Shown here in pieces: positions 3,647-20,182 of a stretch of 20,182 nucleotides of DNA; within the stretch, counting starts at the first letter, position 1; each line of letters opens with the position of its first letter. The DNA is taken from the IMG/VR virus record IMGVR_UViG_3300023180_003682, positions 1-20,182 of that record; one strand, given 5' to 3'. Under the pieces are notes generated by a model. That model did no database searches. It worked only from the letters and a program-made list of their open reading frames with translations, and was not told the DNA's origin. Both the position numbers and the translations under genes were made by a program. Source of the stretch: a virus.

Positions 3647-3664
3647 TAATTGTAAATAGCGAAA
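3626..3664. repeat. 10-bp perfect inverted repeat around the -10 element
   Basis: TTTCGCTATT (3626-3635) and AATAGCGAAA (3655-3664) are exact inverted copies with a 19-base spacer. They bracket the -10 hexamer and predicted start of the sigma70-like promoter. The spacer is long and there is no U-tract, so an operator for a dimeric regulator is more plausible than a terminator. Confidence 0.55.
3651..3659 (+). promoter_or_regulatory. Variant late promoter before the 3677 gene
   Basis: TGTAAATAG differs from the T4 element TATAAATA at one of eight positions and sits 26 bases before the ATG, a spacing like that for gp13. It overlaps the downstream end of the sigma70-like promoter, so this gene could be read both early and late. 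Confidence 0.35.
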
Positions 3665-12962: not shown

Positions 12963-13535
12963 ATGAAAAGTTTTAGAGAATATTTAACAGAATCTACAAG
13001 AGAAAATAAACTATCTATTAGATTCGCAGCAGAAATGACTGAAGAGGATGTGAACCGTGTTGAACGTTTCCTAGGCAAGTATGACCTTATTTCTATGTCT
13101 AAGACATCTACAACACCTATTACAAAAAACCCTTTATTCTTTTCTGAGGAAGTAACAAATACAAAAGTTTCAAAAATAGATATCACTACTGGATATCCTG
13201 TATCAGCGGACATTTTACGTCAACAACTAGCAGACTTATTAGAAATGCATCTTACACATATTGCAGTTCATCCTGAAGGTTGGGAACCAACTGAAGAACC
13301 AGAAGAAGATGGAGATAGAGAAGCTCTGCTTGATTCTGAATATGATGATGAATCTGATAATGGTAAGAATTATGGACGTACATTCGTAGATAACTTTTTG
13401 AAGTCACTATCCAAACGTGATGAAGTAAAAGTTGAGAATGAACTAAGTGTCAAAGAAGAACGTGACTCTACTCCAGAGCAAATGGATACAGATGAAAAAT
13501 CTAGTGACTCAGTAATTTCTGGAGATGAAAAATGA
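12963..13535 (+). CDS. Virion-associated protein with a capsid-targeting-like N-terminus
   Basis: The ATG at 12963 is preferred over a TTG at 12951 because GGAG (12953-12956) then sits six bases upstream; from TTG it would lie inside the gene. The 190-residue product begins MKSFREYLTE, very like the capsid-targeting sequence MKTYQEFIAE of T4 internal head proteins. Cleavage by prohead protease gp21 follows L/I-x-E, and Leu-Thr-Glu at 8-10 fits. The body has a folded part (about 15-100) and then a very acidic tail rich in Glu, Asp and Ser. I recall similar marine-phage hypothetical proteins. A head-internal or prohead-core role is inferred, not shown. It is coupled by ATGA to the next gene. 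Confidence 0.85.
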   Translation: MKSFREYLTESTRENKLSIRFAAEMTEEDVNRVERFLGKYDLISMSKTSTTPITKNPLFFSEEVTNTKVSKIDITTGYPVSADILRQQLADLLEMHLTHIAVHPEGWEPTEEPEEDGDREALLDSEYDDESDNGKNYGRTFVDNFLKSLSKRDEVKVENELSVKEERDSTPEQMDTDEKSSDSVISGDEK

Positions 13536-14218
13536 GTAAACATTACAACTTAACAGTAACAGATAAAAATGGTAAGTCTATTACTACGACTAACGTAAGT
13601 ACAGAATACCCAGAAGAATTAGTTCGTCTGCTTACTCTGGCAGGTTCACAAGTGGAAGTAACGCCAGTAACTACAGATTGTGGTTGCGGTGCTGCACCTT
13701 GTGGGTGTGGTGGAGTAGAAGAAGATGTTGAATACAAACCAACACCAGCAAACGATGAACTAGACTTAGATGATTTTTCAAAGAAAACAGCTAATTCTAT
13801 TTCTAAACAAAGAAAACAAATACAACCTTCACATGGTGATAATCCACTAGAATATTCAGTTAATGAAGAAGAAATCTATGATGCTCTAATGGCAGACGCA
13901 CAAGAGTTCGGCTTAGTTGATGAATCATTCAGTGACCAAGTAAGAGACTTTGGAATGTTCTCAAAAGGCGGTAACGCACAAGTTCAAAACATGATCCAAT
14001 ATATTTTAAATGATTTTGATGATGCGGCAGAGAAAGCAACAAATAGTGAACGTGATTCACTACGCATGGATGCGTTTAGAAAACTATCAAATGAACTAGA
14101 AGCACTATCAGACGAAGATGGTTACGAAGAAGCAATGGACACAGAAGTACGTGAACGTGCTATTAAATACCTCGACCAAGGCATCATTCGTATTTTGGAT
14201 ATGCTTGATAAACAATAA
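13532..14218 (+). CDS. Hypothetical protein with a CxCx4CxC cluster
   Basis: The function of this 228-residue protein is unknown. A compact Cys cluster, Cys50-x-Cys52-x4-Cys57-x-Cys59 set among Gly residues, could bind one metal ion (zinc or iron). Around residues 85-110 a basic segment, SISKQRKQIQPSHGDNPLEY, recalls a motif in cyanophage hypothetical proteins that often neighbour the preceding gene's type. The C-terminal half is acidic and helical (about 115-228). There is no membrane segment or signal peptide. It is translated from GGAG at 13521-13524 inside the preceding gene and overlaps it by ATGA, so the two probably work together. A strong terminator follows. Confidence 0.85.
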   Translation: MSKHYNLTVTDKNGKSITTTNVSTEYPEELVRLLTLAGSQVEVTPVTTDCGCGAAPCGCGGVEEDVEYKPTPANDELDLDDFSKKTANSISKQRKQIQPSHGDNPLEYSVNEEEIYDALMADAQEFGLVDESFSDQVRDFGMFSKGGNAQVQNMIQYILNDFDDAAEKATNSERDSLRMDAFRKLSNELEALSDEDGYEEAMDTEVRERAIKYLDQGIIRILDMLDKQ

Positions 14219-14242
14219 TATATAAAAATATGTAAATGAATT

Positions 14243-14273
14243 AAAGCGTCATAATTATTATGGCGCTTTTTTT
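14243..14273 (+). terminator. Intrinsic terminator after the Cys-cluster gene
   Basis: A 12-bp stem, 14243-14254 with 14258-14269 (AAAGCG paired with CGCTTT at its base, one G-T wobble), has a three-base loop and is followed by T up to 14273. The last T is the first base of the next late promoter. Confidence 0.9.
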
Positions 14274-14281
14274 ATAAATAC
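14273..14281 (+). promoter_or_regulatory. Late promoter for the first adhesin gene
   Basis: TATAAATAC contains the exact T4 element and begins at the end of the terminator U-tract. It is 56 bases before the ATG, with GGGAG at 14315-14319. Confidence 0.75.
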
Positions 14282-14328
14282 GGATAGAACATAATATGAT
14301 TTAAAACTTTTTTTGGGAGATATCTACT

Positions 14329-17300
14329 ATGGGTAAGTATAGAGGTTTGAATATTACAGGCGGACTTAACGCCAATTTTAGAAAAATTAAAGTACGTAAG
14401 ACAGTTGATACTGAATCTTTAGAAGATAGAGGTACAATCGCAGAAGCAGCGTCAGACTTACCTACAAAAGGTGCTGGTCACAGACGTGGACGTGGCGCTC
14501 TTAAATCCCAACGACGAGCAGCACAAGGAGCTACTCGTGGATCAATTTCAATGGGTTGGATCACAGGTGATGATTCAAATGTTATCAGTACTCATGATTA
14601 TGGTTATATCTTCCAAAATACACTATCAAATGACCAAGCAGCTTGGGAAACACGTAGAGCATTAGGTGTAGCAGCATCTATTGCCGATGAACAAAATGCA
14701 GTCGCCACAGCACCAGTTTATGCTACTGGTGTTTCTCTATATAACTCAACTGGTATTATCCCAGCTGGTACTCCACTAATTCTTAATGAAGATGGTACTG
14801 TTTCTGCAGTAGCTGGATCTGCTGGTGGCAGTGGACCATATACATATACAGCAGATACTAACTCACAGGAATGGGAAGTAGATGCTGATTATCAAAATCA
14901 ATCTTATCCTGATCGTTGGGGAGAATCATGGAACAAGATAGCAACAAATGGTACTTATACTGTTATAGGGGATTCACTTTACGAAGAACTTGATAATGGT
15001 AACAAAACATATTCAGGCGGACATGCGTGGATTATTAGAAACTCAGACGGTGCTGTTATGAAATCATGGAACAGCGTTGTTGATGGAGATTCTCCAAATG
15101 ATGCCACGTTAGTTTCTTTTGGCGGAACCACAACAGGCGGCGTAACTTACGCAAATAGTAAATATAACCAAGCAGCTTTTGGTAATGCTGTCGCAATTAA
15201 TAACAATTATGCATTCGTTTCTGCAGGGTATATAGGAACTAATCAATTTGGTACTGATCCAAACTTTGGTAGAGGTGAACTATATGTGATATCTTTAGAA
15301 GATTTTAGTTTAGTTACAGTAATAGATAAATCAGCTGCCTACCCTGATAGTGGAAGTTGGAATGCAGCGGGTAGTACTAGTTGGGCGCAACAACAAATTA
15401 TATTAGATGACAATACAATGGTAATCAGCGCCCCGCACGAAGACTCTCCGGATGGCACAACCAATACTAGTGAACAAGAGGGCGCAATATATGTATACGA
15501 TATTTCGGGTGACCCTGCTAATTGGTCTACACCAATTATTAAACTAACTAATCCAATTCCAGATAATACTACAGATAGACCAACTACTTCAATTTGGTGG
15601 AATTTCGGAAATTCTATAGCTGTTGACTTTACAGCACAAAAAATGGTAGTAGAATGGGGTCAAATTAACAATGGTCACCATTCAGCAGTATATGATTTTT
15701 CATCTGGGTGGAGCAATACTCCTATTAATAGAAGAACAGTAGCGTTCCAAGCATATCCGGGCGGAAGTTTCACTAGTTTACAGGGTGACACATACTACTA
15801 TTATACAACCGACACTTTAACTTTACACGCTGTAGATATAAGTCAAGCAGCAAGTGGAATTTATACGCCTATTTGGAGCAAACAATTCTTTGGAGGATCA
15901 TACGCCGGCGGAGATTATATCAATGTAGTTTTGTATGATGAATCATACGCATATATATCAAATGTTGCTTATGATGATCCCACCTATTCAAATCAGGGAC
16001 AAGTTTTAGTAGCAGATTTATCTAATAGTGGAAATGTTATTGATACTATTGATGCAAGACAAGGTAATATGACAAGCGAAAGATTTGGATATAGTATAAG
16101 TTTAGGAACAGGTGGGTCACTTATTGTGGCTGGTGAAAAATCTGCTTCGGTTGGACCAAATAATGAAAATTTATCAAGAATGTACTTGTATCAAGTTGGA
16201 CCTGGAGCAGGCTCGACAAACCTAACAGATTCAAACTTTATTGGTTTCGCAAAAGATGGTTTCTCAGGTGCATCTCTTGGTAAGGTTATTTCTTTTGGTG
16301 GTATTGTTGATGGTTTTACTGGACTAACTGTGGGTGAAACATATTATGTACAGAATGATGGTTCTATTAGTTTAACCCCATCTGATGTCGCCGCAGGTCC
16401 GGCTGTAAGTACAACATCAATTCAAGTTCAAGCACCTGTAGTTAATTATTCATATGAAGGCTCCACTTACACATTAGGTGCAAAAAGTGGTACATTCTCT
16501 TCAGGCCCGTATACATCTGCTATAACACTTGACGGTAATACAGTTTTCCAAGGTTTCCCATATGAAATGTCTCCAAACGAAGAGTCTGGTGGACTTGAAA
16601 TTTATACAAAAGATAGTGGCGGAAACTGGTCAGTTTTACAGACTATTCATCCTCCACTGGAAGGAGCAAATAACAGTTTCAAGTGGAGATTCGGTGCGAC
16701 TGTAAGAGTTACAGACGATGGTAATAGAATGGTTACTATGAGAACAGGCGGGGTTTCAGGTTATAATCCAGGTAAGTTTTATGTTTACGACAAAAACGAA
16801 ACATCAGGTCTATATGAACTTACAGCAAGTCATCAGCATTATTCAGATGCAGGCATGAATAACCAACGCTTTGATAAATCTACTGGATATAATGGTTTAG
16901 ATATGTCACCTGATGGTACACTTATAATGATACATCATACAAAGTATATAAACTCATCATCAGGATATGAAAACTGGGCTATTGTGTACAGACAAGATGA
17001 AAACGGTGCGTATCAATATACCGATAAGATACAAATGCCAATTTATGGAAGCCGTGGTTCTATGAGCGGAGCTTCACAATGGTCACCTACTGATATGTCA
17101 ACTAGTGGGCATTTTATAATGGGGTATCCAACTTGGAATAGTTTTGGTAAAGCAGCATACGCATACTATGATTTAGAAACAGGACAAACATACTCAGGTT
17201 TATTAGCAGCTAATAGCGGAACTGTAAACGCATTCGGTAAAGGTGTAGCAATGGCTGGTGACGGTTCAAATTGTGCTGTACTTGATCCAACCTGGCAGTA

Positions 17301-18594
17301 TCAGTATGCTCAAGGTGTAGCGGGTGCTGTATTCATTTATGTATGGGATTCATCTACCAAAACATACTCATTTTCACAGCAATTAGCAGCAAATGATGAA
17401 AATCCGTCAGATGTTTTAAGACAGGCAGGTAGTATTTTATTTAACAGTGATGGATCGCAGTTATTCATTAAGAAAACCAACAGTATGCTTATATACACAA
17501 GGGATGAGAATGGAACATATGTTCTGTCAGAAGAGTTACCAAATAGTTTTGTATCAAATGGTTGGGGTACATTTAGTAGTTCAAGTGATATGGCGTGGTT
17601 GCTTTGTGGTGGTGGTACATTTGGTGTACACGGTGGTACATCTGGTTCTGCTGGACAAAGTTCTGGAAATCTACCAACATCTAACAGTAGTACATGGTAT
17701 GGTGATCGTTATGTCGCTTCTGGTGGGCGTACATCATCTAAATATTCATCCATAGAATACATTGAAATTGCTACAGGTGGAAGTGCTACAGGAATGGGTA
17801 ATATGCTGGAAGCAAAAGTATTTAACTCTTCTATCTCTGATAGCCAGAATTATTATACCATTGGTGGACAGACTGATGCATTTGGACATAGTAAACTAAT
17901 AGAATATAAAGCATTTTCTTCTACAGCAAATTCATCTCAATATGGAGATCTGACTGGATTCTTTGCAATGGGTGCAGCAGGCTCTAATGGTGTGACGGGA
18001 ATTTACGCACATCAATATGGTCTACTAGGCTCATATTTAACAGGTATGGACTGGATTGCACTAGGAGGCACATCTGGTAATTCAAGTAGTTTGGGCGATT
18101 TGTCTGTAGGGCGATCTACTGGCGCAGGTTGTGCTGATGCTACTTATTTTGTATTGGGCGGTGGTAATTATGATGGTGGGCCTTACGCTATTAATACTAC
18201 AGAATATCTTACTATAGCTAACGGCGGCACCGCTACAGCAGGCGGCACATTATCATATGGGGCACAAGCTAATGGCGCAGCATCAAATTCTACTAAAGGA
18301 GTTTGGGCAGGCGGTTATAGTAACTCTTTAAATAGTGCGGTAAGTACCATGTCAGTTATGACGTTGGCAAACCCTTCTAATAATGCTACAACTCTTGGTA
18401 ATTTATCTAACGCAGTACAGTATCCTGGATTATCATGTTCTTCGGACAAAGTTGTTCATTCAGGCGGCTATGGTAACAATTATGTTAATTCTATAGGTGT
18501 TGCCTCAATTGAGACTGGCGGTACAGCATCTAATATTGGTACATTGTCAGCGGCTAGAATGGGTGTAGGTGCAGCGACAGGCAATGCATCTTAA
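14329..18594 (+). CDS. Large multi-propeller tail fibre / adhesin-like protein
   Basis: This 1421-residue protein is probably a virion surface fibre or spike for host recognition. Residues 1-160 form a conserved N-terminal domain shared with the next gene, with a basic loop at ~48-70 (KGAGHRRGRG), and probably attach it to the particle. About 195-625 has FG-GAP-like propeller repeats of the form 'FGNAVAINNNYAFVSA ... GELYVISLEDF'. About 635-710 is a small beta domain with GLTVGETYYVQNDGSIS. About 715-1080 is a second repeat block ('FGATVRVTDDGNRMV', 'FGKGVAMAGDGSNCAV'). About 1083-1421 is a kelch-like block of roughly seven units with GG(Y/G) strands and 'TIATGG'-type strands. There is no signal peptide. 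Start: GGGAG nine bases upstream. Function is inferred from architecture and late promoter. Confidence 0.85.
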   Translation: MGKYRGLNITGGLNANFRKIKVRKTVDTESLEDRGTIAEAASDLPTKGAGHRRGRGALKSQRRAAQGATRGSISMGWITGDDSNVISTHDYGYIFQNTLSNDQAAWETRRALGVAASIADEQNAVATAPVYATGVSLYNSTGIIPAGTPLILNEDGTVSAVAGSAGGSGPYTYTADTNSQEWEVDADYQNQSYPDRWGESWNKIATNGTYTVIGDSLYEELDNGNKTYSGGHAWIIRNSDGAVMKSWNSVVDGDSPNDATLVSFGGTTTGGVTYANSKYNQAAFGNAVAINNNYAFVSAGYIGTNQFGTDPNFGRGELYVISLEDFSLVTVIDKSAAYPDSGSWNAAGSTSWAQQQIILDDNTMVISAPHEDSPDGTTNTSEQEGAIYVYDISGDPANWSTPIIKLTNPIPDNTTDRPTTSIWWNFGNSIAVDFTAQKMVVEWGQINNGHHSAVYDFSSGWSNTPINRRTVAFQAYPGGSFTSLQGDTYYYYTTDTLTLHAVDISQAASGIYTPIWSKQFFGGSYAGGDYINVVLYDESYAYISNVAYDDPTYSNQGQVLVADLSNSGNVIDTIDARQGNMTSERFGYSISLGTGGSLIVAGEKSASVGPNNENLSRMYLYQVGPGAGSTNLTDSNFIGFAKDGFSGASLGKVISFGGIVDGFTGLTVGETYYVQNDGSISLTPSDVAAGPAVSTTSIQVQAPVVNYSYEGSTYTLGAKSGTFSSGPYTSAITLDGNTVFQGFPYEMSPNEESGGLEIYTKDSGGNWSVLQTIHPPLEGANNSFKWRFGATVRVTDDGNRMVTMRTGGVSGYNPGKFYVYDKNETSGLYELTASHQHYSDAGMNNQRFDKSTGYNGLDMSPDGTLIMIHHTKYINSSSGYENWAIVYRQDENGAYQYTDKIQMPIYGSRGSMSGASQWSPTDMSTSGHFIMGYPTWNSFGKAAYAYYDLETGQTYSGLLAANSGTVNAFGKGVAMAGDGSNCAVLDPTWQYQYAQGVAGAVFIYVWDSSTKTYSFSQQLAANDENPSDVLRQAGSILFNSDGSQLFIKKTNSMLIYTRDENGTYVLSEELPNSFVSNGWGTFSSSSDMAWLLCGGGTFGVHGGTSGSAGQSSGNLPTSNSSTWYGDRYVASGGRTSSKYSSIEYIEIATGGSATGMGNMLEAKVFNSSISDSQNYYTIGGQTDAFGHSKLIEYKAFSSTANSSQYGDLTGFFAMGAAGSNGVTGIYAHQYGLLGSYLTGMDWIALGGTSGNSSSLGDLSVGRSTGAGCADATYFVLGGGNYDGGPYAINTTEYLTIANGGTATAGGTLSYGAQANGAASNSTKGVWAGGYSNSLNSAVSTMSVMTLANPSNNATTLGNLSNAVQYPGLSCSSDKVVHSGGYGNNYVNSIGVASIETGGTASNIGTLSAARMGVGAATGNAS
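14746..14807 (+). repeat. 62-nt direct repeat, copy 1 (within the first adhesin gene)
   Basis: This block matches 19101-19162 at 61 of 62 bases (T versus C at the 21st base). It encodes residues 140-160, beginning STGIIPAGTPLILNEDG, at the end of the shared N-terminal domain. Confidence 0.95.
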
Positions 18595-18620
18595 CAAATA
18601 AAATTAAAAATCTTAAAAAC

Positions 18621-18651
18621 AAGCCGCTGTCTTAAAGATAGCGGCTTTTTT
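18621..18651 (+). terminator. Intrinsic terminator between the two adhesin genes
   Basis: A 12-bp stem, 18621-18632 with 18636-18647 (AAGCCGCT paired with AGCGGCTT, one G-T wobble above), has a three-base loop and a T-tract to 18651. The next late promoter starts at 18652. Confidence 0.92.
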
Positions 18652-18660
18652 GATAAATAC
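18652..18660 (+). promoter_or_regulatory. Late promoter for the second adhesin gene
   Basis: GATAAATAC directly follows the terminator U-tract and lies 38 bases before the ATG at 18690. A near copy, AGTAAATAC, follows at 18661-18669. Confidence 0.72.
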
Positions 18661-18689
18661 AGTAAATACTAAAGCATTGGGAGACTTTA

Positions 18690-20182
18690 ATGGGTACATA
18701 TAGAGGTCTAAATTTATCAGGTGGTTTAAGAGCTAACTTTAGAAAAATTAAAGTAAAAAAGACTATTGATGAAATGGAAATTTCAGATAGAGGAGCTATT
18801 ACAGGTACACCTAGCGATCTTACAACAAAAGGTGCTGGTCATAGACGTGGCCGTAATAATAATCAAAGACGTGGTGCACGTGGTGCTACAAGAGAAAGCG
18901 TGGATTATGGTTTTATTACTGGGGCAGATTCTAATATCGTACAAGAACATGATTATGGTACTGTAGTAGAAAATACCACATCATTGGCGTCGGCTGTATT
19001 TGAAACACGTAGAAGCCTAGGTCTCGCAGCCTCTATCGCAGAAGAAGAAACTGCGGTAGCTCCTGCTGCAGCAATGCCCGGTTCAGTATCACTTTACAAT
19101 TCAACTGGTATTATCCCAGCCGGTACTCCACTAATTCTTAATGAAGATGGTACTGTTTCTGCTGTTACTGGTGGAATCGTAACTGGATCTTCGCTTGATA
19201 TGTCAATATCTAAAAACGGTCAAATGAGGGCAGTCAAAGTAAGAGGTGATTATATTATCGTAGGGACAAGGATGACAAGTCCTGGAAAAGTTTATGTATT
19301 CAATAAAAGTGGCGAATTAGTACATGAAATTACTGGTCCTTCAGGATCATCATACCTGTTTGGTTGGGGAGTTGATGTAAATGATGATTATATAGCTGTA
19401 ACAGACAGAGATGCCGACAAAGCGTATCTCTTTAATATGTCAGATGGTTCTCTGAGACATACATTATCTAGACCAAGTTCAAGCAACAACAATAACCCCA
19501 TGTACTCAAACTCAGTGTCTTTACTTGGCGATAAAGTCGTAATCGGTTCATATCAAGAAAAAGATGGTTATGGGGCACGTATGTATAATTGTGTTAACGG
19601 ATCATTAATTAGAGATTATGTAAGTACAAGCACTACCGCAAATCATCCTACTGGCGGCACTGAGTATCATTTTGGTAGATCAGTAGCAATGAATTCAACA
19701 AAGGTTTTTATTACCCATCCTGGCCATGATATACATGTATTCAGTCATAGCAGTGATAGTAGTATAGCTACGATTTCAGCTGGTGGTAGTGGTCAATTCT
19801 TAGATTGTGATGAAACATATCTAACTCTTAGTACCTATGCATACCCAAGTCAAGTTGCAGTATACGATGTTTCAACACTTAATCTTATTAGGACTATAAC
19901 AGTTCCTAATGGCATTCCTGAATTTGGTTGGGGCGCCCAAATTTCTGGAAATTATATTGTAGTTAGTACTTATAATCGAGGATATGTTTATGTGTTTGAT
20001 ATTACAACAGGTAATCATTTAGCTACATTAGAAAGTCCGGATGGCGATACCACATATCCTGGTACAAATTTTGGTATGGCAAACACAATGGGTACCGCAA
20101 GTGTTGGTATAGGCGATAATGGAGATGGTAGTGCCATAGTTGCCGTATCTCATACTAATCATCCGGATGGTCCTAAATTACA
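18690..20182 (+). CDS. Second propeller adhesin, paralogue of the 14329 gene, cut by the right edge
   Basis: The frame from ATG 18690 stays open for 497 codons and runs off the window, so the gene is partial. GGGAG at 18679-18683 gives a six-base spacing. The first ~158 residues clearly match the preceding gene's N-terminus: M-G-x-Y-R-G-L-N, then GG and ANFRKIKV, DRG, TKGAGHRRGR, HDYG, ETRR-x-LG-x-AASIA and STGIIPAGTPLILNEDG. After that the two diverge. The remainder shows repeated beta-propeller units such as 'GWGVDVNDDYIAVTD ... AYLFNMSDGSLRHTL' and 'GWGAQISGNYIVVST ... VYVFDITTGNHLATL', each about 45-60 residues. A same-position virion anchor with a different binding head is the natural reading. 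Confidence 0.88.
   Translation, partial: MGTYRGLNLSGGLRANFRKIKVKKTIDEMEISDRGAITGTPSDLTTKGAGHRRGRNNNQRRGARGATRESVDYGFITGADSNIVQEHDYGTVVENTTSLASAVFETRRSLGLAASIAEEETAVAPAAAMPGSVSLYNSTGIIPAGTPLILNEDGTVSAVTGGIVTGSSLDMSISKNGQMRAVKVRGDYIIVGTRMTSPGKVYVFNKSGELVHEITGPSGSSYLFGWGVDVNDDYIAVTDRDADKAYLFNMSDGSLRHTLSRPSSSNNNNPMYSNSVSLLGDKVVIGSYQEKDGYGARMYNCVNGSLIRDYVSTSTTANHPTGGTEYHFGRSVAMNSTKVFITHPGHDIHVFSHSSDSSIATISAGGSGQFLDCDETYLTLSTYAYPSQVAVYDVSTLNLIRTITVPNGIPEFGWGAQISGNYIVVSTYNRGYVYVFDITTGNHLATLESPDGDTTYPGTNFGMANTMGTASVGIGDNGDGSAIVAVSHTNHPDGPKL
19101..19162 (+). repeat. 62-nt direct repeat, copy 2 (within the second adhesin gene)
   Basis: This is the counterpart of 14746-14807, with 61 of 62 bases identical and in the same reading frame (codons 138-158). 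Flanking DNA is much less similar, although the proteins remain alike upstream. Confidence 0.95.

Follow-up and report, generated by a model that had tools for sequence, protein, structure and literature searches.

Two genes that lie in tandem at the right end of a viral record from IMG/VR share a 62-nt block of almost identical DNA, placed exactly where a conserved N-terminal region gives way to a variable head. The question raised by this locus is whether such local identity marks a place at which heads are exchanged, or whether it has some other origin.

The tandem genes and their joint

The window, by which we mean the whole stretch of 20,182 bases that was analysed, contains phage genes for the sheath and tube of a contractile tail and for the neck. 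Among named phages, the best-covering matches of the sheath were to PA5oct-like Pseudomonas jumbo phages (about 40% identity), and the source lineage is apparently one of environmental phages that are distant relatives of the T4-type jumbo phages. Gene 1 (g1; 14329–18594, + strand) is an open reading frame of 1421 amino acids that comprises a conserved N-terminus, the joint, a beta-propeller/FG-GAP-like head and a second repeat region (Pfam FG-GAP_2, 7.4e-05). Gene 2 (g2; 18690–20182, + strand; FG-GAP_2, 1.1e-10) is truncated by the end of the window, and its full length of 878 amino acids can be seen in the near-identical contig L005 (10274–12910). The N-terminal region of g1, presumed to be the virion anchor, occupies 14329–14745 and is 65% identical in amino acids, joint included, and 69% identical in DNA to that of g2 (18690–19100). 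The joint block follows at 14746–14807 in g1, where it encodes STGIIPAGTPLILNEDGTVSA, and at 19101–19162 in g2, and the variable heads then extend over 14812–18594 and 19167–20182, respectively, all on the + strand.

The names 'anchor' and 'adhesin' are taken from this architecture; g1 and g2 are probably host-attachment proteins, and a PHROG search gave no match for either. Their place after the tail genes, together with a T4-type late-promoter-like octamer in front of each, is only suggestive of host-binding proteins carried on the virion. These octamers are TATAAATA (14273–14280, +), which comes after a hairpin and T-run at about 14243–14273, and GATAAATA (18652–18659, +), after a hairpin and T-run at about 18622–18651. 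Octamers of the type NATAAATA are found at window positions 3651, 4930, 6672, 9485, 14273 and 18652 on the + strand and 2892 on the – strand, in the manner of T4 late promoters about 25–60 bases 5' of gene starts; when one mismatch was allowed, the octamer was not enriched across the whole window.

Both heads have matches to FG-GAP repeats in Pfam. AlphaFold2 modelling of g2 residues 1–497 gave an unstructured N-terminus of low confidence, four short strands spanning the joint at residues 135–158 (also with low confidence, pLDDT about 33–42), and a beta-propeller starting near residue 178. Foldseek matched this model to WD40 and designer beta-propellers, with E values down to 3e-15. The STGIIPAGTPLILNEDGTVSA segment is thus predicted to be a small beta-module between the conserved N-terminus and the propeller head, with a consensus of roughly G-x-I-x-x-G-x-P-V-V-L-N-x-D-G-T-V-S-A-V that would link the N-terminal region to an interchangeable beta-propeller.

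A third paralogue is present in L005 (13851–15659) and in L004 (17939 onwards), with one 279-aa gene between it and g2. It was set aside as a further joint carrier, having an N-terminal region like that of g1 and g2 with no joint, and its head is of another type, possibly LamG-like by our own reading of the sequence.

An island of DNA identity

Direct comparison of the two blocks confirmed the 61 identical bases out of 62 counted in the earlier note. The sole difference is a synonymous GCT/GCC alanine codon at block offset 21; the encoded protein is identical, 19 of the first 20 whole codons (STGIIPAGTPLILNEDGTVS) are the same, and the longest exact match between the genes is 41 bases. The same note had described the remainder of the N-terminus as conserved in protein and diverged in DNA, and this too was borne out, as only 44 of the 83 shared residues use the same codon and 39 use a different one, with a further 54 aligned residues differing upstream of the block. 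When synonymous divergence was mapped along the two N-terminal regions, the block emerged as an island with sharp edges. Synonymous differences are found in all the flanking codons, five before it (V S L Y N) and two (A V) at or beyond its end, and identity in 30-base steps runs from 0.67 and 0.43 before the block to 0.97 and 1.00 inside it and 0.33 after it. Set against the upstream rate, the codon identity of the block has P = 6e-5. A scan-corrected permutation that allows for any equally good 20-codon stretch gave P = 0.005 for g1/g2 and P = 0.0026 for g2 against the related contig L007 (described below), and scan-corrected comparisons that included the related contig L006 alone were not significant.

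One way to hold such an island in place without recombination would be a lineage-specific nucleotide constraint on the joint codons, exerted by translation, a binding site or another element. It would suit the finding that, within the block, private changes number only about one in each of g1, g2, L006 and L007, and that this holds even for g1 orthologues in which about one-third of the upstream codons differ. However, the codons are not simply the preferred ones (threonine is written ACT, although the window genes use ACA twice as often), and the codon usage of the phage itself predicts only about 8.3 matches in 20 codons at saturation. The block also has no RNA structure (z 0.19 and –0.29) and no late-promoter octamer within it, and heads differ at precisely this site anyway.

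Other phages speak against the same explanation, since they carry the same peptide in different codons. A degenerate DNA search for LNxDGTVSAV in IMG/VR returned 51 stretches, most of which, chance matches apart, had the joint (A)SGxIxxGxxVVLNxDGTVSAV with variable sequence after it, and a survey of the collected loci brought together 56 joint instances, duplicates from near-identical contigs included. The earlier note had named equally high synonymous identity in unrelated phages as one finding that would tell against recombination; we found instead that the peptide is conserved while its codons differ. Outside the window family, 27 within-contig paralogous joint pairs were 55–87% identical, mostly 55–77%. 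Since unrelated phages lack the same nucleotides and most paralogous joints reach only 55–77%, a universal DNA constraint is unlikely, and near-identity is evidently not needed for the architecture. That the joint is a widespread protein module explains its amino-acid conservation but not the identity of its DNA. Taken together, we regard a constraint confined to this lineage as unlikely, though as the strongest of the competing explanations.

Paralogous joints in L059 (0.87–0.97) were considered as a second island and left uncounted because their flanks are similar too (0.85/0.85). Neither the N-terminal region nor the joint consensus matched any of the named phages in INPHARED, and the joint peptide gave just weak chance matches in Cutibacterium phages. 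A scan for TGIIPAGTP-type peptides found, beyond the known family, only an unrelated one (NFPF...GIIPAGTPLVQVIP).

Change of head at the joint

The search for chimeric joints that the earlier note had proposed was positive: L006 and L007 each have the N-terminus of g1 and the block, and then continue into unrelated heads. L006 is 94.6% identical to the window through the upstream genes and 93% over 14292–14828, after which its head is unrelated; L007 is about 79% identical through the upstream genes and as far as about 14810, where a third head begins. Each chimera is represented by one contig, which breaks off after about 600 bases of head sequence. By blastp the L007 head has no significant similarity to the heads of g1 or g2 and the L006 head is only remotely similar to that of g2, so that the heads share at most a remote propeller similarity; the g1 head has no counterpart in either contig. 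A search of IMG/VR for a donor phage of the four heads gave only near-identical contigs, these being also the only ones there with the g1 head, and the bacterial and archaeal genomes searched gave no match.

At the joint itself, the block is 98% identical to that of g1 in both contigs, as are the last 65 joint bases of L007, and 30 bases (14776–14805) are identical in g1, g2, L006 and L007 alike. The g2 and L007 joints (0.93 and 1.00 in 30-base steps) lie between N-termini that are only about 40–70% identical. Despite its g1-type N-terminus (85% in amino acids), L007 has the g2-like codons GCT GTT at the 3' end of the block. Such incongruence is expected of recombination and is compatible with a crossover inside the block, on the strength of two sites only.

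We also noted a second mosaic breakpoint directly 5' of g1 (window 13911–14292 against L006 9752–9964), where the gene before g1 (13532–14218, 228 aa) has its C-terminal part replaced in L006 (197 aa).

Other lineages likewise have breakpoints at the joint. One clade, whose N-termini are short (MSNLS/TDLLPxGxG...), has two or three tandem genes per contig; pairs in it such as L013/L048, L046/L052 and L030/L035 are 0.90–0.97 identical upstream, 0.85–0.95 in the joint and 0.28–0.48 beyond it; overall, L013, L048, L046, L052 and others show 0.75–0.97 over N-terminus and joint and 0.2–0.5 in the head. The tandem genes of L013, L028, L030, L046, L048 and L051 are mostly about 1.45 kb apart and have slot-specific N-termini, a common joint and heads that vary between phages. 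The reverse arrangement is seen in G006 and G007, where two N-termini unrelated to each other (0.28–0.32) carry a common joint and head (0.90–1.00 in 50-base steps for 600 bases or more), and similarity starts with the very first joint bases. A single G007 protein of 2093 amino acids also contains two joints that agree at 49 of 50 bases between unrelated flanks. The large proteins of G006 (L078) and G007 (L079), of about 1000–2100 amino acids, contain collagen-like repeats and several joints, and their modules are in different order. Where related phages have different heads, homology thus ends at the joint; where unrelated N-termini carry the same head, it is at the joint that homology begins. 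From the window family, the short-N-terminus clade and G006/G007 we conclude that breaks at the joint have occurred in three or more lineages and in both directions.

False chimeras could in principle be made by short-read assemblers that jump from one phage to another at a shared block; one of about 60 bases is a plausible jump site, and L006 and L007 both end within the head. However, g1 and g2 are arranged alike in four contigs from separate datasets (the window and the near-identical L003, L004 and L005 of other metagenomes) and so are not the error of one assembly, their exact match is short at 41 bases, and the breakpoints of other lineages coincide with the homologous joint, their heads being carried over 1.5 kb. 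We therefore consider an artefact most improbable.

It could also be argued that g1 and g2 simply underwent gene conversion confined to the block, with no part in head exchange, as would be allowed by an island sharply bounded on both sides in two neighbouring genes that are 4.3 kb from each other. Such conversion may still explain the g1/g2 pair taken alone; as a full account it is improbable, because the island is common to L006 and L007, whose heads are unlike those of both g1 and g2, and because other lineages break at the joint too.

Probable head exchange and its known counterparts

We think it likely, on comparative grounds, that the joint is a recurrent breakpoint of homologous recombination for the exchange of heads, and that the g1/g2 identity is the footprint of a recent exchange or conversion. 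The proposal in the earlier note of 'gene conversion or a recombination site that permits head swapping' can be kept in part: L006, L007 and two other lineages support a recurrent head-swap breakpoint, and nothing in the 20 kb covered supported a dedicated, site-specific one. No recombinase was called among those window proteins that were searched against PHROGs (part of the open reading frames, 20 kb), and the repeats of the 20-kb window included neither an inverted-repeat pair flanking the heads nor a template/variable pair in g1.

T4-type phages replicate and recombine intensively, and their general recombination is well established. The phage's own general recombination would presumably be the enzyme at work here: as the DNA of the joint is alike while its flanks differ, homologous recombination can cross over there, and a crossover in the joint would bring in a new head in frame, with a second one anywhere downstream completing the exchange. 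The heads would bind host receptors, and the identity of g1 and g2 at the block would have been left by a recent exchange between the two genes, or with a common pool of joint-carrying heads. Its source may be gene conversion, a head that arrived together with its joint, or the lineage-specific nucleotide constraint. Frequent exchange of a block also homogenises it, and on the present data the DNA identity may either cause exchange or merely record it.

A wider and more tentative proposal, which we hold to be possible rather than probable, is that the joint (GxIxxGxPVVLNxDGTVSAV) is a standard connector across many unrelated environmental phages, plugging beta-propeller heads onto different N-termini, with its DNA a general crossover point. 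If this were true, propeller adhesins would form a pool exchanged across phage lineages. For the family studied here, the site of head change is fixed to within tens of bases in what are probably host-recognition heads, and the short motif allows such swappable heads to be recognised in metagenomes.

Mosaic lambdoid phages have conserved short boundary sequences between modules, which have been proposed as crossover sites; those are mostly intergenic, whereas the present joint is inside a gene, at a domain joint. Such boundary sequences are also mentioned in PMC10408124. Adhesin swapping in T-even phages has experimental support, whereas the present case is comparative only. Recombination between conserved motifs has been known since 1998 to swap adhesin specificity in T-even phages (cited, with Trojet et al. 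2011, in PMC3797505); the two cases are alike in having short conserved motifs as crossover points and in the modular shuffling of host range. The glycine-rich motifs and fold of gp37/gp38 are unrelated to the present joint and heads, and g1 and g2 were rejected as adhesins of that type, as they had no PHROG match and the predicted head is a beta-propeller.

The closest comparison is with coliphage tailspikes, in which a 44-nt motif at the boundary of anchor and receptor-binding domain is more conserved than its surroundings, is common to paralogous and unrelated genes and has been proposed to promote head exchange; its average identity is 63% over the 44 nt, across genera, and a second motif lies 3' of the gene (PMC10408124). 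In our case, over the part inside the window, the 3' end of g1 shares no repeat of at least 25 nt; the end of g2 lies beyond the window, and L006 and L007 stop short of this region. Both systems have a boundary DNA motif, a conserved N-terminal region and a variable C-terminal head. As in the tailspikes, boundary DNA is conserved above both flanks, here in g1/g2 and g2/L007 though not in most other paralogue pairs, and heads are exchanged at the boundary in relatives (L006, L007 and the other lineages). The present case differs in that the motif is 98% identical over 62 nt in two genes of the same phage, in that the heads are beta-propellers, and in that pairs with the same anchor and different heads can be seen to break in the motif. 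The principle is already known; what appears to be new, judged from sequence, is another protein family with another motif, whose mode of working would apparently be the same.
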